Assembly: GCF_024227715.1 (NCBI RefSeq)
Contig: NZ_CP100448.1
Coordinates: 2,315,655-2,379,654 of the forward strand
From: Halomarina litorea
GTDB taxonomy: Archaea; Halobacteriota; Halobacteria; Halobacteriales; Haloarculaceae
DNA: 64,000 nucleotides
Reading direction: 5' to 3'
A program made the position numbers and the translations under genes. Below, one piece after another: positions 2,689 through 14,435 of this stretch (position 1 is the first letter of the stretch; each line of letters starts with the position of its first letter). Under the pieces are notes generated by a model. The model saw only the letters and a program-made list of their open reading frames with translations, was not told the DNA's origin and made no database searches.

Positions 2689-3165
2689 CTACAGCCAGGC
2701 GTCCAAATCCACGACCCGCTGGTTCGGCGGCGACCCGACGACCACCTTCCCCGGACCGACGTCCTCGGTCACCACCGCACCCGCCGCCACGACGCTGTCG
2801 GCCCCGAGTTCGACGCCCGGCGCGACGACCGACCCCGCCCCGACGAACGCCCCCTCGCGGAGGACGACTCGCTCGAAGACGTCGTTGCCGTGTGCCATCC
2901 CGTCCTCGTCGAGGGGATGGGTGACCCCGACGACGCTACAGTTCGGGCCGATTTGCACCTCGTCGCCGATTTTGGCGTTCTCGACGTACGTCCCCGCGTT
3001 GACGACCACGCGGTCGCCGAGGGTGCTCTTCTTCAGGGAGGTCCGTTCGTAGATGCCACAGCCGTCGCCGACCGTCGAGTCGTGGACGGTGACGAACTCG
3101 CGGACCTCCGACTCCCCGATCTCCGAGTCCACGATTCGCGCCGAGTCGTCTACCTGGTCGTTCAT
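2689..3165 (-). CDS. left-handed beta-helix acyltransferase-like protein
   Basis: The 158-residue protein is built from imperfect hexapeptide repeats ([LIV]-G-x-x) over most of its length, for example IGDEVQIG, LREGAFVGAGSVVAPGVELGADSVVAAGAVV, the fold of trimeric O- or N-acyltransferases of the WbbJ/LpxA/gamma-carbonic-anhydrase type. A C-terminal VVVGSPPNQRV resembles the VxGxPAK end of sugar O-acetyltransferases. His87-type residues lie in VTHPLDEDGMAHG. The ATG at 3163-3165 is preferred to a GTG 9 bp upstream. It is divergent from what was the HFX_2341-family gene before the element inserted. The acceptor is not predictable. Confidence 0.8.
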   Translation of the reverse strand: MNDQVDDSARIVDSEIGESEVREFVTVHDSTVGDGCGIYERTSLKKSTLGDRVVVNAGTYVENAKIGDEVQIGPNCSVVGVTHPLDEDGMAHGNDVFERVVLREGAFVGAGSVVAPGVELGADSVVAAGAVVTEDVGPGKVVVGSPPNQRVVDLDAWL

Positions 3166-3201: not shown

Positions 3202-3238
3202 GTCGTCCGGGGTCTGGCACTTTTTATTACTACCACGA
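3202..3238 (+). promoter_or_regulatory. original (host-side) promoter of the interrupted HFX_2341 gene
   Basis: A TATA-like TTTTTATTA (3221-3229) lies about 27 bp before the ATG at 3252, the spacing of a leaderless haloarchaeal promoter. It aligns without gaps to the promoter in front of the intact gene at 7695-7731 with about 29 of 37 positions identical. The palindrome seen there is degraded here: the left arm GTCTGG is kept and the right arm is not. After integration this promoter faces the integrase gene. Confidence 0.6.
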
Positions 3239-3307
3239 CGCCATGTCACGTATGCAGACGCACATCGTCCCGGTCGGGTTCGACTACGACCGGCTCATCG
3301 CCCCGCT
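3239..3307 (+). repeat. left attachment-site direct repeat
   Basis: These 69 bases are identical to 7732-7800. They cover the start codons and the first 18-21 codons of the HFX_2341-family gene (reading MQTHIVPVGFDYDRLIAPL) and end abruptly at CCCCGCT; beyond that the two copies differ completely. Identity up to an abrupt boundary next to an integrase gene is the pattern of site-specific integration (attL). Confidence 0.85.
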
Positions 3308-3389
3308 GCGCTCCGCGCGGGTTTCGGAGTCTGCTAATGGCAAACACCGACGCAACCCTCGAACCAATCGCGCCCGACACGGCAGTTGA
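3252..3389 (+). pseudogene. 5' remnant of HFX_2341-family gene left of the element
   Basis: The frame from the ATG at 3252 encodes the first 18 or so residues of the regulator (MQTHIVPVGFDYDRLIAPL), then runs into element sequence and stops at 3387-3389 after 45 codons. An upstream ATG at 3243 is also in frame. The open frame overlaps the integrase start (3337) in another frame. It cannot give a functional regulator; the intact gene is at 7745-8653. Confidence 0.75.
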
Positions 3390-4359
3390 GCTTTACCTGA
3401 CCGACCGGCAAGCCGAACTTGCTGCGGAAACCCTCTCGTCCTACGAATACAAGCTGAGTCACTTCACCGAGTGGTGCGAGCGGGAAGACGTCGGCAACCT
3501 CAACGACCTAACCGGGAGGAAGCTGCTACAGTTCAAGCAGGACCGAGCAACCCACCTCGCACCCGTCTCTCTCAAGGGACAGATGGACACGCTACGGTCG
3601 TTCATCCGTTTCTGTGAATCCATCGACGCGGTGGTAACCGACCTGCACAACAAGGTACTCTCCCCATCGCTGAGCCAAGGGGACCGGGAACGTGACGTGC
3701 TGGTAGCCAAGGAGCAAGCAGAAGACGTCCTGACGCATCTCGGACGATTCCAGCACGCTTCCATGCACCACGCACTACTAACCGTCCTATGGCGATGTGG
3801 GGCACGCTCAGGGACAGTGCGGGCGTTCGACGTGCAGGACTACGACCCGGAAAACGCATGGCTACGTGCTGTCCACCGAGAAGGCACGCCCCTCAAGAAC
3901 AAAGAGAAGGGAGAGCGATTGATTGCGCTCAGTCCGGACACCTGCCAAGTGCTGAACGACTACGTAGACCACACGCGCAAGCAAGTTGCCGACGACCATG
4001 GTCGGCAACCGCTGTTCACCACGCAGTTCGGACGGGTGTCCAAGTCCACGATTCGAGAAACCTGCTACAAGTGGACTCACCCGTGTCAGTTCAACGGTGG
4101 CGAGTGTCCGCATGGTCGGGACATGGACAGTTGCCAAGCTCTCACCCCACCTGAGAAGGCCCCGTCCGTGTGTCCATCGTCACGTAGCCCACACGCATGG
4201 CGACGAGGAGCTATCACCCACCATCTGACCGAGGATGTGCCGGTGGAAGTGGTCAGTGACCGCATGAACGTGAGTCCCGATGTGCTGGAAGCGCACTACG
4301 ATAGACGGTCAGAGGAGGTGAAGGTGGAGCAAAGGCGGGGGTATTTGGACGGGCTGTAG
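3337..4359 (+). CDS. tyrosine recombinase / site-specific integrase
   Basis: The 340-residue protein has a SAM-like core-binding domain (about residues 12-110) and a catalytic domain with the full set of family residues: Arg157 in RCGARSG, a lysine in the KNKEKGE beta-turn (187-191), His286 and Arg289 in PHAWRRG, and the nucleophile Tyr321 in EAHYDRR. Between them lies a Cys cluster (Cys243, 250, 257, 266; PCQFNGGECPHG) resembling the zinc-binding insert of haloarchaeal virus and plasmid integrases. The gene begins 30 bp inside the element, next to the left repeat, as expected of an integrase that acts on that site. In the integrated state it lies 85 bp downstream of the host promoter at about 3225. 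Confidence 0.92.
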   Translation: MANTDATLEPIAPDTAVELYLTDRQAELAAETLSSYEYKLSHFTEWCEREDVGNLNDLTGRKLLQFKQDRATHLAPVSLKGQMDTLRSFIRFCESIDAVVTDLHNKVLSPSLSQGDRERDVLVAKEQAEDVLTHLGRFQHASMHHALLTVLWRCGARSGTVRAFDVQDYDPENAWLRAVHREGTPLKNKEKGERLIALSPDTCQVLNDYVDHTRKQVADDHGRQPLFTTQFGRVSKSTIRETCYKWTHPCQFNGGECPHGRDMDSCQALTPPEKAPSVCPSSRSPHAWRRGAITHHLTEDVPVEVVSDRMNVSPDVLEAHYDRRSEEVKVEQRRGYLDGL

Positions 4360-4432
4360 CACACTAACCTGAGCAAGACGGGCAGGGCTCATACATTCTT
4401 TTGACGACGAGTTTGCCAGCTCTGTATCTCTT

Positions 4433-4741
4433 TTACAAGCGGTGCGCTTCTAATCGTGACACGACATGTTTTCCCACGTAGAAAGACAGTACAAGTGAAA
4501 GAGAGAATATAATGCCATATGCGAAGAACATTGCAATTCCTATTCCAGAGACAGTTGCTAAACTAATGATTCCCAACAGTCCGAGGCCAATAGTGCCCAA
4601 AACCAGACTAACTGTGAACGACCCGTAGAGAATGTACTGGATATAGAGCATCCACGGTCGTTTTGAGGACGTGTACTCGCGTTCCATATCCACCTTCGAC
4701 ATTTTAGAGTAATCAGAATCGGAGTCAGACAATAGCACCAC
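4433..4741 (-). CDS. small membrane protein of the element
   Basis: A protein of up to 102 residues with a polar, acidic N-terminus and three hydrophobic segments (about residues 33-55, 56-75 and 76-93) ending in a basic tail. The frame opens with GTG at 4741; an ATG at 4702 gives an 89-residue version that keeps all membrane segments and may be the true start. No family recognised. It is AT-rich like the rest of the element and reads toward the integrase. Virus or plasmid membrane proteins of this size are common in haloarchaeal elements, but that is only context. Confidence 0.55.
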   Translation of the reverse strand: MVLLSDSDSDYSKMSKVDMEREYTSSKRPWMLYIQYILYGSFTVSLVLGTIGLGLLGIISLATVSGIGIAMFFAYGIIFSLSLVLSFYVGKHVVSRLEAHRL

Positions 4742-5089
4742 CTCGAACCGGGTGGATTGTGTCTATGGCAAGTCTGTTTACGTTCATAACTCGGATTCAT
4801 TGGTATCTGTGATAACATTAATTCATGAGAACGTACTCTTTGACAGTACATTCAAACGTCTAATATAGCAGTATATCAAACATTTCGGCATTACCGATAC
4901 CTCCGCTTATACTCTCCCACAGTCTTGCTCACCCGACTGCGTGAGCTTTCACTATACCGCCACCGCTTAGCAGCCACCCACTCTGCTCGCATTCCTGTCT
5001 TGGCCCCTACTGGTCAAAGCCACCAGCGTAGACCAGCCCTGCTGCCTGAACGTCAGTTCTGTGTGCTAACAACGTTATACGAGAAGTGC
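4742..5089. other. gene-free spacer in element
   Basis: These roughly 350 AT-rich bases lie between two minus-strand membrane-protein genes. I see no open frame worth calling, only weak inverted repeats such as CTCAC-N8-GTGAG near 4927. The part next to 4742 presumably holds the promoter of the small membrane protein. Confidence 0.4.
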
Positions 5090-5677
5090 TTATAGCCAAA
5101 TTACGACAGTCATTGATACCACGGTCCAGAGAAGGGTAGCCGCAACTACGATTGCATTACCTTTGTCCCGCGTTCGTGACTGGACCCACCGCCGTAGTTC
5201 TGTGAGTTTCAGGGTTTGGGCCGGGTCAAACGGGTGGAATGTGATTATATCGTGTTCTCGCTCTACGCTGTCTTTGTACTCAGCGAACACAATAGCATTA
5301 GGGCCAACCATTGCCCCAAGTTCCATATTTAGTTGATTCTCTATCGACTTGGGATGTCCAACTGCTACCTTGATACGCTGAACCTCGCCTGAGAGTGGAT
5401 AATACGAGTCAACCGCTTCTACTAACTCCTTGAATCCGTCCTCTCCCGTCTCGATTACGCCTACCCGTACCGACCCGGATTTGAATACGATTTCTTCCAG
5501 CGTGTCTATTCCATCTGTCGCTTGACGCCTATACCGTGAGAACCGGGGATACAATGGTGCAACAAGTCCAATTACGGCAGTGAGTCCGATTTGAAGCCCT
5601 CTCAGAATTGCCTCCCAACAGAGCCATGAAATACACTGAGAGACTACAGTACTGTTATGCGCTATGAGGAAACTCAT
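5090..5677 (-). CDS. two-helix membrane protein with a central soluble domain
   Basis: The 195-residue protein (from the ATG at 5677; a TTG at 5713 is the longer alternative) has a hydrophobic segment near residues 21-45 and a second at the very C-terminus (about 174-195). The region between, about 125 residues, is soluble and mixed alpha/beta in character (VRVGVIETGEDGFKELVEAV, VQRIKVAVGHP). With this arrangement both ends sit near the membrane and the middle domain on one side. I recognise no family. Its start overlaps the end of the zinc-ribbon gene, so the two are translated from one message. Confidence 0.6.
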   Translation of the reverse strand: MSFLIAHNSTVVSQCISWLCWEAILRGLQIGLTAVIGLVAPLYPRFSRYRRQATDGIDTLEEIVFKSGSVRVGVIETGEDGFKELVEAVDSYYPLSGEVQRIKVAVGHPKSIENQLNMELGAMVGPNAIVFAEYKDSVEREHDIITFHPFDPAQTLKLTELRRWVQSRTRDKGNAIVVAATLLWTVVSMTVVIWL

Positions 5678-5897
5678 TGTACGAGTCACAGTCAGGACAC
5701 TGAATAGTAGCAAGTATGTGAAAATTTGGAAATACTTCAGCTAAGCCGTTGTCACAGTTGTAACATGTATACTCAATATTTGATGGGTCTGTTGAGAATA
5801 CCGGAGTTTCATCGGGTATGAATAGCGGCTGCTCACCAGAGTCACTTCTTGACATGGCTTCCTGTTCGCTTATCGAGTCCATGCTAAGTTGGCGCAT
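5655..5897 (-). CDS. small zinc-ribbon protein of the element
   Basis: The 80-residue protein has an acidic Ser-rich N-terminal half and a single zinc ribbon: Cys45-x2-Cys48 and Cys67-x2-Cys70. Such modules usually bind nucleic acid or a protein partner. A TTAATA box about 31 bp before the ATG (rc of 5924-5932) is a likely promoter. It overlaps the start of the following two-helix membrane protein, which suggests the pair works together. I assign no specific role. Confidence 0.6.
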   Translation of the reverse strand: MRQLSMDSISEQEAMSRSDSGEQPLFIPDETPVFSTDPSNIEYTCYNCDNGLAEVFPNFHILATIQCPDCDSYNEFPHSA

Positions 5898-6364
5898 GGT
5901 ATGTACTATAAACTAAGATACATGTATTAAGTTGTTTGGTAAGACGCCTCGCCGTGTGCTATAGACGTGACTGGACGGACGACATCCCCACCCACCTACA
6001 CGTTCGTGCCCGTGCCTCCGGCGCTACGCGGGCTTTCGCTTTCCGCTAAGCAGCAAGTGACGCATACATCTGTTCGTGACGGGCAGGCAGACACTTGGTA
6101 CACTCTGCCGCACCAGTGACGCACACAATTTGTCAGCCTGCTTGCATGGTAAGCCGTGGCGCGTGTCGATGCTGCCTACCATGAACAACTTGCCAACATA
6201 TGAATTTTTGTGAATCATGATTTCATGAACGAATCTGTGCCAATCGTTGGGGAAATTGAACTGTCCATGGGAATGGCACCCATGTATAGAAATTTACAAA
6301 CAACATCTTTTCGTGCAGCCTGTGTGAATTAACAAATTTTTCCAGACGACTCCAGCAGCGGCTA

Positions 6365-6490
6365 CAGCACCGCACCGCACAGCACCGTACAGCACAGCAA
6401 CCACGCACGCGACCGCAACAGCACAACACCGCACAGCACCGCAACACACCGCACAGCACCGCACAACACCGCAACAGCACCGCACCGCAC
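6365..6490. repeat. low-complexity CAGCACCGCA short-repeat tract
   Basis: About 125 bases are built of irregularly alternating CACCGCA, CAGCACCG, CAACACCG and CAACAG units. On the plus strand G and T are scarce, giving strong strand asymmetry. Frames read through it give Cys/Gly/Val/Ala-rich nonsense, so it is not coding. Confidence 0.75.
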
Positions 6491-6527
6491 GAGACGCAGG
6501 TACCCGGTGCCCGTCTTACTTAGAATC

Positions 6528-6631
6528 TTACGTAAACCGTCTAAAGAAACGTCTACGTAGACTTCTGATGGAATATAGGTTACGTAAACCGTCTAAAGAA
6601 ACGTCTACGTAGACTTCTGATGGAATGTAGG
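6528..6631. repeat. 52-bp tandem direct repeat (two units) with internal palindromes
   Basis: Units 6528-6579 and 6580-6631 differ at one base (6575 A, 6627 G). Each contains two perfect palindromes, TTACGTAA at its left edge and GTCTACGTAGAC in the middle (6551-6562 and 6603-6614), with the shared core TACGTA. The arrangement is like iterons or a tandem operator for a dimeric DNA-binding protein. No spacer separates the units, so this is not a CRISPR. Confidence 0.85.
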
Positions 6632-7704
6632 GAATCGTCACGACCATGGCGTTAGTTCTACAACCAACATGGGCAGAACTGAGGCATTCCTGAAATCGCT
6701 GAGGATTCCTCAGTTTAGCCGCTATTGTATTTCTTACTTAGGTTAGTACCAAACATCATATTTTGACTACTAATTGCTCAAAACGGCTCTCAAGGAATCA
6801 CTGAACCAGTAGTTGCCAGCGATACGGAAATTTTACCTTCAAATAAAATTTTCTCGACATGGGTTACAATCCACCATTACACTTTTGGTCTGTACCCTGC
6901 CCGTCTATAATAACACACAACAAGAGATGCGCTCAAGCGACTTCGCCACCGTCACCACAATAGTACGTCGCTCACTCCTTTCTCACATTCCAGCTACCGT
7001 ACTGCCACCGCAGATTTGAGCAGCAGTTATCTACCCCCCAACTTCTCGTCAACATTCTCAAAATCATGAGCGTGTTACTGGTAGCTGAAACTGGAAATTT
7101 TGTCTCGGAGTCACCTACTACAGAGCACGCACGCATCCGCTTCGTGTCAAAAGGGGGTGGGGAGGCTTTATCATCATCTGAGTACATCAATGCTCAGTTA
7201 CGTACGTTCCAATAGCCAGCCTCCCTCATACAGGGGTTCGCTGGGGGTGGACATGTGGCCATTGTTGTATGAGTCGATGACTAGTAGAGGTTCATAAATG
7301 CCAAGGTAAGAGATGGTGTGCTAGAGGAATACATAAATATAGTCTGTAGGACTAATGGCCGGTGTCGGATTTTCGAGGGCCAATTAATAGTTCCGCGCGC
7401 AGGGAAGGCCAAGGGTCAATCCCCGGCCCCACTGTCATCGTAGGCCGGTGGCCCGACCATGTGCTGAAGAGTGTGACCGGGGGTGCCCGTCTTGTTCAAA
7501 TGGGTTATCAAACGAGCTAACCAACTGGTACGCCCGCCAGTTGCTCACCACGTTTGACAAGCTTGTCGCGGTGCGATAACGGTCAAATGGTGTGGGGGCA
7601 GGTCGTCTCAGCCAAAAAACTAAGCTACCAGCCTACATCGATTCCTCAGAAGCCCGCGACGGCGCGGGGGCAAACATCGGTAATGTGTGGTTGAGTGGTC
7701 CGGC

Positions 7705-7731
7705 GTCTGGTACTTTTTATAAGTACCAGAC
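7705..7731 (+). promoter_or_regulatory. perfect palindrome over the TATA box of the HFX_2341-family gene
   Basis: Arms of 11 bases (GTCTGGTACTT and its exact complement AAGTACCAGAC) flank TTTAT, so the operator covers the TATA element itself. The TATA centre lies about 27 bp before the ATG at 7745. A protein bound here would block TBP; the winged-helix protein encoded just downstream is the obvious candidate. This copy is element-derived, and is more symmetrical than the host copy at 3212-3238. Confidence 0.75.
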
Positions 7732-7800
7732 CGCCATGTCACGTATGCAGACGCACATCGTCCCGGTCGGGTTCGACTACGACCGGCTCATCGCCCCGCT
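7732..7800 (+). repeat. right attachment-site direct repeat
   Basis: Exact 69-base copy of 3239-3307, here continuing into the intact gene. Together with the left copy it bounds the integrated element (attR). Confidence 0.85.
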
Positions 7801-8653
7801 CGTCCGGGACCAACTCGACGTGGACCGCGTCATCCTGTTGGAGGGCGCGGTGGGCAGCGAGGCCAACGTCGAGTACTCGCGGAACCTCGCGACGAAACTG
7901 GAGAAGGACTTCCGGAACCTCCTCGGTGCCGAGACGGAGCGGTTCGTCATCGAGGACGTCTACGACTACGACACGGCCTTCGAGCAGGCGTACGACCTCG
8001 TCAACGCCGAACTGGACCGCGAGGGGCGCGAGGAGGGGGAAGTGTGGGTGAACGTCTCCTCGATGCCCCGCACCGTCTCCTTCGCGTTCGCTACTGCCGC
8101 CCACTCCATCATGGTCGAGCGACAGAGCGACCGGGACCGCCTGCACACCTACTACACCGTCCCCGAGAAGTACCTCGAGACGGAACTCGCCGAGGAGTTG
8201 CGGGAGGGACTGGACCTGCTGGCGGAGGTGCGCGATTCGAGCGTCGACTCGGAGCGCGTCGACGAGTGGCTGGAGGGCGCACGTGACCTGCTCTCGGAGT
8301 TCGACGAGCGCGGGACGACCATCGGCGCGAAGGAGATAGCGGGGGGTCACGTCGTCGAACTCCCCGTCGCCTCCTTCTCGAACGTCAAGCCCTTCGAGGA
8401 ACTCATCCTGTTCACCCTCGGGGAGCACGGCGTCTTCGAGTCCGTCTCCGAGTTGGCCCAGACGCTCGCCCGCGATCTGGGCGAGGAGTACACCGACTCC
8501 TTCCGGTCGAAGGTTATCTACAACGTCGACCGACTGGGCCCGGGCGGGAAGGGGTACATCGAACAGGAAGAGCATGGAAAGTCCTACCGGACGCGCCTGT
8601 CGCGAATCGGAAGCCTGTGGGTGCGCTCGCACGCGGACGGCGACGAGCGCTGA
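7745..8653 (+). CDS. HFX_2341-family regulator: CARF-like sensor plus winged helix
   Basis: The 302-residue protein has an N-terminal Rossmann-like domain resembling CARF domains of Csa3-type regulators: PVGFDYD at residues 7-13, then VDRVILLEG, and a second ligand-loop-like motif VNVSSMPRTVS at about 102-112. The C-terminal part (about 214-296) is a winged helix (LFTLGEHGVFESVSELAQTL). Family knowledge suggests ligand-controlled transcription; a nucleotide ligand is an inference. The ATG at 7745 is chosen over one at 7736 because it gives a leaderless start 27 bp from the TATA box. A palindrome covers that box. The first 18 codons double as the attachment site of the element. Confidence 0.8.
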   Translation: MQTHIVPVGFDYDRLIAPLVRDQLDVDRVILLEGAVGSEANVEYSRNLATKLEKDFRNLLGAETERFVIEDVYDYDTAFEQAYDLVNAELDREGREEGEVWVNVSSMPRTVSFAFATAAHSIMVERQSDRDRLHTYYTVPEKYLETELAEELREGLDLLAEVRDSSVDSERVDEWLEGARDLLSEFDERGTTIGAKEIAGGHVVELPVASFSNVKPFEELILFTLGEHGVFESVSELAQTLARDLGEEYTDSFRSKVIYNVDRLGPGGKGYIEQEEHGKSYRTRLSRIGSLWVRSHADGDER

Positions 8654-10571: not shown

Positions 10572-11171
10572 ATGCAGAGAGACGACCTCGGATTTCTCGC
10601 AGTCGTCCTGCTCGGCGTCGCACTGGTCGTCGTCCCCGGCGGCTACTTCGCGCTCACCGGGCTCGGCGACGTGCTGGCCGGCACCGACGCCCCCGCCGGG
10701 CCGCCGGGCAACAACTCCACCGACCTGACCAACGCGACGGAGACGACGTCCGCCGAGACCACCGACGCGACGGAGACGGCCGCGCCGTCGACCACGGAGC
10801 GGGCGACGACGGAACCGGACACCGAGACGCCGGAACCCACGCCGGAGCCGACGGCGACGCCCACAGCGACGCCCGAACCGACGGCGACACCGGAGCCGAC
10901 GCCGGACCCCACGGCGACGGCGACACCCACCGAGACGCCCACGGCGACACCAGAGCCGACTCCCACGCCCACGCCGGAGCCGACGCCGACGGCGACGGCG
11001 ACGGCGACACCCACCGAGACGGAGACGCCCCGTGACGGGAACATCAGCGGGAGCGACAACAGCGGACGGGGAAACAGCGACGACCCGGCCTCGGAGCGTG
11101 AGGACCACGACGACGAAGCGGAGGGAGAGGAAGAAGAGAACGACAGCCTGCTGACGGTCAGTCTTCCGTAG
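10572..11171 (+). CDS. N-terminally anchored Pro/Thr-rich surface protein
   Basis: The 199-residue protein has one hydrophobic helix near its N-terminus (about residues 8-33) without an obvious cleavage site, so it is probably an uncleaved anchor with the rest outside. Residues 45-150 are almost only Thr, Pro, Glu, Ala (repeats of TPEPT, TATPT), with many possible O-glycosylation sites and N-x-T/S sequons (NNST, NATE). The tail is very acidic with Asn/Ser. It is a paralogue of the protein at 13674: the anchors share VVL-GV-L-VVPG-YFA and the GD-LAG that follows. It overlaps the oppositely oriented Gfo/Idh/MocA gene by 14 bp. Confidence 0.75.
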   Translation: MQRDDLGFLAVVLLGVALVVVPGGYFALTGLGDVLAGTDAPAGPPGNNSTDLTNATETTSAETTDATETAAPSTTERATTEPDTETPEPTPEPTATPTATPEPTATPEPTPDPTATATPTETPTATPEPTPTPTPEPTPTATATATPTETETPRDGNISGSDNSGRGNSDDPASEREDHDDEAEGEEEENDSLLTVSLP

Positions 11172-13673: not shown

Positions 13674-14435
13674 ATGGACTCTGACGACTACGCGTTCGTG
13701 GCGGTCGTGCTGGTCGGCGTGTTGCTCGTCGTCGTCCCCGGGGTCTACTTCGCCTACAGCGCGGTCGGCGACCTGCTGGCCGGCCCCGGCGACCCCGGCC
13801 CGACCAACGGGACCGACACCGTCGCCGACACCCCGGTGGCGACCGACCCGCCCGCGTCCGACCCGCCCGACACCGATCCGGACGGGACCACCTCCACCCC
13901 GACGACGGTAGAGACCGGGTCGCCGCCCGCGACGTCCCCGGACTCGCCGGCGACGGACCCGACAGCGGAGCCTGAACCGACATCTGAACCGACGCCCGAG
14001 CCCACATCTGAACCGACGCCCGAGCCAACCCCGGAGCCGACACCCGAACCAACTCCAGAGCCGACGCCCGAGCCAACCCCAGAGCCGACACCTGCCCCAA
14101 CGCCTGAACCCACCCCGGAGCCGACTCCGACGTCCACGCCGGAGCCGACGCCGACACCAACTCCCACGCCGACGCCAGCGCCGACACCAACACCGACACC
14201 GGAGCCCACCCCAACGCCGACCCCGACTCCCACTACGACGCCGACGCCAACTCCGGAGCCGACACCCACCCCAACGCCTGAACCGACCCCGACACCGACT
14301 CCGACCGCTACACCTACGCCGACACCGACACCAACGGCCACTGCGACACCAACTGCAACGCCAACGCCGACTCCCACACCGACACCGACTGCAACGCCGA
14401 CGCCCGAACCTACGGAGACCCCGGACTCAGGGTGA
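13674..14435 (+). CDS. N-terminally anchored long Pro/Thr/Glu repeat surface protein
   Basis: The 253-residue protein has one N-terminal hydrophobic helix (about residues 7-32) and then about 170 residues of nearly pure TPEP, TPTP and TPTA repeats up to the stop. The array is codon-varied but internally repetitive and likely to vary in length between strains. The anchor is a clear paralogue of the protein at 10572. Extended, probably glycosylated stalk outside the cell is the likely form; no sortase, PGF-CTERM or catalytic domain is present, so its partner is unknown. Confidence 0.75.
13947..14424 (+). repeat. degenerate CCGAC-rich tandem repeats coding TPEP/TPTP
   Basis: About 480 bases are made of 6- and 12-bp units (ACGCCCGAGCCA-like) inside the anchored surface protein gene. 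Third positions vary freely while the Pro/Thr/Glu pattern is kept, so selection acts on the protein. Confidence 0.7.

Follow-up and report, generated by a model that had tools for sequence, protein, structure and literature searches.

We analysed a stretch of 64,000 nucleotides from the genome of Halomarina litorea (contig NZ_CP100448.1, positions 2,315,655 to 2,379,654; hereafter the window), in which an integrase gene lies between two copies of the start of crr, a gene for a transcriptional regulator of the HFX_2341 family. From the comparison of related genomes it is clear that a family of elements inserts at the start of this regulator gene, exchanging the host promoter for its own. Judged from its sequence, the 4.5-kb stretch at 3239-7800, low in guanine plus cytosine (GC), is an integrated mobile element in the Halomarina genome. 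Very probably it targets the first ~56 bp of the crr coding sequence, and a promoter block borne on its attachment (att) site, attP, replaces the host promoter upstream of the regulator.

Terminal repeat and target gene

Positions 3202-3307 and 7695-7800 form a direct repeat with 98 of 106 matches (92%) at a spacing of 4493. All eight mismatches are confined to the first 37 bp, leaving an imperfect upstream part (29/37) and an identical core of 69 bp, with 13 bp before the ATG at 3252 or 7745 and 56 bp from the ATG onward. This confirms the repeat described in the first-pass annotation of the window. An exact repeat of 69 bp excludes chance, and the pair is unique within the 3.9-Mb genome, apart from one 25-bp partial match. 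The anatomy is that of a site-specific integrative element: the flanking direct repeats are identical to the target, the 5' coding sequence of the regulator, the integrase ATG lies 29 bp past the left core, and relatives have empty sites, two genomes (G003 and G006) carrying a single intact copy with no integrase alongside. The GC content of the insert is 0.51, compared with 0.67 in the flanks, and the elements of related loci are likewise below their flanks. The main features are as follows.

3202-3238, plus strand: left promoter region, presumed host promoter, now before the integrase; TATA-like sequence at 3221-3229; motif CTGGCACTTTTTATTACTACC, one of two genome-wide matches
3239-3307, plus strand: left att core copy, 69 bp identical, which takes in 56 bp of regulator coding sequence, beginning with the ATG at 3252
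3252-3389, plus strand: truncated regulator frame that overlaps the integrase start in another frame and has its stop at +138
3316-3325, plus strand: CGCGGGTTTC, which matches GAAGCCCGCG at 7649-7658 in inverted orientation (9/10); candidate arm sites for the integrase
3326-3329, plus strand: GGAG, Shine-Dalgarno-like, 7 nucleotides before the integrase ATG; found in many relatives
3337-4359, plus strand: tyrosine recombinase (integrase), member of a clade with 100/100 support that targets this regulator gene
7645-7714, plus strand: element right-end block, which precedes the intact regulator in related elements; dyad ACATCGGTAATGT at 7674-7686
7705-7731, plus strand: element promoter, now before the regulator; its TATA box lies at the centre of a perfect 11-bp inverted repeat, GTCTGGTACTT-TTTAT-AAGTACCAGAC; exact motif match, one of two genome-wide
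7732-7800, plus strand: right att core copy, 69 bp identical
7745-8653, plus strand: HFX_2341-family transcriptional regulator (crr), intact; NF051475, PF19810 and PF24989

The regulator obtains 578 bits with NF051475, above the curated cut-off of 500, which places it in the HFX_2341 (crr) family. Its start, ATGCAG, is conserved across haloarchaea, and the start pattern was recognised in 346 of the 392 genomes of the order that were scanned. An upstream ATG at 7736 is not conserved. The TATA-like sequences, TTTTTATTA at 3221-3229 and TTTTTATAA at 7714-7722, each lie ~27 bp before the ATGCAG, the spacing expected for a leaderless haloarchaeal transcript. By inspection of the sequence between the left core and the integrase ATG (3308-3336) we found a GC-rich region with no TATA-like box, as the first-pass annotation had expected when it assigned the integrase to the upstream promoter. 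The GGAG before the integrase ATG would fit a leadered message.

Related elements and the exchange of promoters

The integrase of the window is 84% identical to that of a congener, Halomarina rubra ZS-47-S, and integrases at 72-84% identity are found in H. rubra, Haloglomus halophilum, Haloferax profundi and Halobacterium sp. CBA1126. All close relatives are preceded directly by the first ~15-21 codons of the regulator, and wherever the regulator start and the integrase start could both be located they lie 85-97 bp apart. Among the 346 genomes with a recognisable start, the scan found 15 with two tandem copies on the same strand, 1.6-21 kb apart. Fourteen of these loci together with a Haloglomus genome from outside the scan sample (G054) make 15 two-copy elements, and a half-element contig of Haloferax profundi brings the number of element loci to 16. 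The two-copy carriers are spread over four haloarchaeal families. A full-length integrase at an identity of at least 72% is present in nine of the 16 loci, including the window, and in the rest it is degenerate or none was detected; G044 and G369 were counted on their right-end block, and G407 on a degenerate integrase start and a right end resembling that of G403. Compared with 27 other haloarchaeal integrases, the nine intact ones form one clade with 100/100 support. No relative of the window integrase was found in the viral contigs searched.

The fifteenth locus of the scan, L140 in G365, was rejected as an element. A regulator promoter and 5' end are duplicated there 1.6 kb apart, and the locus was set aside because no integrase was detected, the right block is absent and the copies share 41 bp of promoter identity, which gives it the look of a plain duplication. 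Cargo genes can be seen in some of the elements: type I restriction-modification genes (hsdR, hsdS, hsdM) at L083 5895-12184 in Haloglomus halophilum, and a DNA methyltransferase gene at L141 10409-11326 in G364.

To trace the promoters, the 100 bp before the left copy and the 100 bp before the right copy were each compared with congeners without a second copy. At 12 of 14 testable loci the left side is 66-100% identical to the native regulator promoter of the congener. The right side at these loci scores 48-62 against the same promoter, which is at or near the level of random pairs (mean 53, maximum 61, 300 pairs). The values for left and right are, for instance, 100 and 55 in G016, 98 and 53 in G058, and 88 and 52 in Haloglomus. 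The right-side blocks resemble one another instead, with 84-93% identity among six loci of families f1 and f7 and 79% between G058 and G086. A profile of the right block, searched against 841 kb, gave no match at any left copy, and all its matches with E<1e-6 end 30-33 bp, usually 31, before the ATG of an intact regulator, except for two partial ones (L121; L010/L023). The first-pass annotation is thus supported in part: the promoter exchange that it claimed is borne out by the related loci and follows from the anatomy of the window. The left promoter of the window itself was not matched to a native one.

A right-end block also stands before the regulator at three loci with no recognised second copy, L154 (G085), L023 (G004) and L121 (G206), being partial in the last two. 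These loci may be scars of lost elements, which suggests that the replacement promoter stays after the element decays. At L022 4845-4896 (G007) a degenerate partial 5' end of the regulator lies ~100 bp upstream of the intact gene.

The homology of the two promoters in the window had been taken as part of the att site. This does not hold for the family, since exact identity at the other two-copy element loci ends 0-10 bp upstream of the ATG and the promoter is thus outside the att core. The 29/37 homology appears to be best explained by a regulator-promoter motif that lies over the TATA box and is common to both copies. This TATA-centred motif, CTGGTNNTTTTTATAANNACC, occurs within one base of -38 with at most 4 mismatches in 27 of 116 distinct upstream sequences, a set that excludes the right-hand ones and still holds G365, some species close to one another and, among its single-copy sequences, a few possible element scars; by the same criterion it occurs in 0 of 2320 shuffles. 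With at most 2 mismatches it is present in 13 of 16 right-hand promoters, and in the whole genome of the window it occurs only twice, both times at the att promoters. The recurrence at a fixed position and the two genome occurrences indicate that CTGGTNNTTTTTATAANNACC is a promoter motif of this regulator gene, present in host and element copies, and it is possibly an autoregulatory operator. A wider regulon sharing the motif was rejected on the same two genome matches.

The right-hand promoters have more dyad symmetry than the native ones (p=0.0002), a difference to be read with caution given their common descent. At the TATA position many hosts have an element promoter richer in A/T than their native promoter (paired test, p=0.004, n=15); in the window the two are equal in this respect (9 and 9). 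Since both are of one motif type, the exchange may be close to neutral in this genome. The exchange should matter more in hosts with a less TATA-like native promoter, such as Haloglomus and several f7 genomes.

The other features in and beside the element are the following.

2689-3165, minus strand: hexapeptide-repeat acyltransferase (Pfam Hexapep), left chromosomal neighbour, divergent from the left promoter
4433-4741, minus strand: small element open reading frame (ORF), no family in the family search
5090-5713, minus strand: element ORF of 207 amino acids, no family; 66% identical to an element ORF of Halomarina rubra
5655-5897, minus strand: element ORF of 80 amino acids, 58% identical to an H. 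rubra element ORF

The H. rubra counterpart of the 80-residue ORF has a weak zinc-ribbon match, below the cut-off. The element also contains a 52-bp unit in two tandem copies (6528-6631, 98%) that includes GTCTACGTAGAC, possibly iterons or replication-related repeats, and a low-complexity tract of CAGCACCGCA-type repeats (6346-6490). Elsewhere in the window the ORFs at 10572-11171 and 13674-14435 are alike, with long TP-rich repeats, and likely encode secreted or surface proteins.

Proposed mechanism and alternative explanations

According to our model, the tyrosine integrase would recombine within the first ~56 coding bp of the HFX_2341/crr repressor gene, and attP would consist of those codons and an upstream block of ~100 bp with its own TATA promoter and dyads. 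Because the crossover would fall inside the shared codons, an intact regulator gene would be rebuilt under the element promoter, and the original promoter of the host would be left with a truncated 5' stub before the integrase. Excision would give the host promoter back to the regulator and place the element promoter before the integrase. Inverted CGGGTTTC/GAAGCCCG-type sequences and an ACATC-N3-GATGT dyad are candidate arm sites of the recombinase; the inverted pair CGCGGGTTTC/GAAGCCCGCG has a shuffle frequency of 0.05 at the window locus, and several relatives show a GGGCTT(T)C / GAA(A)GCCC pair. Both TATA boxes would be active as promoters, and translation of the integrase would use a message whose 5' end is the former start of the regulator. 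We considered whether the truncated regulator frame and the integrase are translationally coupled and rejected this: the truncated frame stops short of the integrase start in some elements and runs past it in others, so there is no common geometry. The first role of the promoter block is most likely to maintain expression of the target gene and to provide binding sites for the integrase. The rewiring would then follow from an arrangement that primarily preserves the target gene, with a state-dependent change in the expression of the integrase or the repressor as a possible consequence.

Several points weigh against this model. The left promoter of the window has no closer match among the congener promoters (56 and 53) than the right one (58 and 53), no other genome was found in which the acyltransferase gene adjoins the regulator, and no orthologous empty site matching the left flank was found. 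As no relative has the same upstream gene beside the regulator, the left promoter is not provably native by orthology, and its nativity is assumed from the arrangement at the other loci. At G008, too, no match to a native promoter was obtained. Since the profile was built from right ends, only single-copy loci, L154 for example, give it independent support. On a transcript from 3252, the out-of-frame truncated frame would precede the integrase.

An origin of the repeat by tandem duplication, assembly artefact or chance has a negligible probability. One two-copy locus, G365, does resemble a plain duplication in its 41 bp of shared promoter and its lack of an integrase and a right block, but the window has an integrase beside the left copy, a low-GC insert and the conserved right block, and the same arrangement is found at 14 other two-copy element loci from independent assemblies. 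Two further alternatives concern the role of the promoter block. In the null form of our model the block is a by-product of the attP anatomy, that is arm sites and enough promoter for the target, with no selected regulation, and we lean slightly towards this form. The arrangement restores the reading frame of the regulator and supplies a promoter, inverted candidate arm sites are found both in the block and beside the integrase, and the islands at dusA behave alike (PMC4482086). However, the element promoters are more dyad-symmetric than the native ones, which could point beyond bare promoter function.

The first-pass annotation had gone further and described an integration-state switch. In a true switch the exchange would alter integrase and repressor levels between the integrated and the excised state and would be under selection. 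This is doubtful, even if parts of the comparison agree with it: the promoters are exchanged, the element promoter is in many hosts more A/T-rich at the TATA position and more palindromic, and it overlaps a gene-specific motif that is a potential autoregulatory operator. Against it, the rows of these tests are related by descent, so that the tests overstate the difference, and the case is weakest in the window, because its two promoters share one motif type and are equally A/T-rich.

Known systems and the CRISPR connection

The nearest precedents are bacterial islands in dusA and mutL. The islands of the dusA-associated integrases (Farrugia et al. 2015, PMC4482086) likewise give their target a new 5' end, with the original 5' end as the far boundary, have putative promoters before and after integration, and may carry type I restriction-modification cargo as in the present family. 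By comparison of sequences, our elements are gene-restoring islands of this 5'-end kind, supplying a new 5' end and a putative promoter to the target gene. They work alike but are no members of the dusA-associated family, as their target is the HFX_2341-family regulator. The dusA islands are bacterial, target a tRNA (transfer RNA)-modification enzyme and have a promoter replacement that is only predicted (PMC4482086), whereas the present family is archaeal, targets a global repressor, carries a portable promoter block across families, and has native promoters that can be traced in congeners. SpyCI in mutL of Streptococcus pyogenes also integrates at the 5' end of a host gene, and expression of that gene follows the integration state or relies on a promoter of the element; SpyCI normally blocks mutL, and the rescuing promoter is cryptic, within an int pseudogene (PMC3430984), whereas in the present family the replacement promoter belongs permanently to the right end. 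The pTN3-type archaeal integrases act at the 5' half of tRNA genes. After integration the integrase promoter drives the target, and the host promoter could transcribe part of int, as in our model, but the integrase is suicidal, being split by integration, and the target is a tRNA (PMC8371274); here the integrase remains intact and the target encodes a protein. In the open-access literature searched we found no previous account of integration at this regulator gene. New here is the combination of an archaeal system, a global repressor as target and a portable promoter block.

The target gene belongs to the same family as HFX_2341 of Haloferax mediterranei, named crr, whose overexpression represses all cas genes tested; repression of cas and transport genes is known only for this species (PMC11434293). 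In its available text, the study describes neither integration at the gene start nor promoter replacement. It reports that the strongest hotspot of self-spacer acquisition for CRISPR (clustered regularly interspaced short palindromic repeats) is a locus that contains both HFX_2341 and a putative transposable element (PMC11434293), which may be of the present type. A published primer was used to look for H. mediterranei among 15 genomes from one genus, that of G369 (taken, unconfirmed, as Haloferax), and the species was not among them. These reports could be read to mean that the element captures the promoter of a cas-gene repressor to damp CRISPR immunity against itself. We consider this quite improbable: the genome of the window has no cas1 match, the repressor is global and also present in CRISPR-free species, and the occurrence of cas1 in 8 of 16 two-copy genomes, compared with 53 of 145 for the order, is not a convincing enrichment. 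The connection to CRISPR is a lead only.

The family provides a well-replicated natural case in archaea of mobile DNA replacing the promoter of a global repressor. Native and replacement promoters can both be read in each genome, which makes it a testable system for the rewiring of a host regulator by integration, and it is a concrete candidate explanation for the crr-linked spacer-acquisition hotspot of Haloferax mediterranei. A stronger proposal, which we hold to be unlikely, is that this haloarchaeal clade of elements carries a standardised, autoregulated crr promoter and imposes it on each host, making repressor and integrase levels integration-dependent. If true, the level of the repressor, and through it defence or metabolism, as well as the expression of the integrase would follow the integration state.

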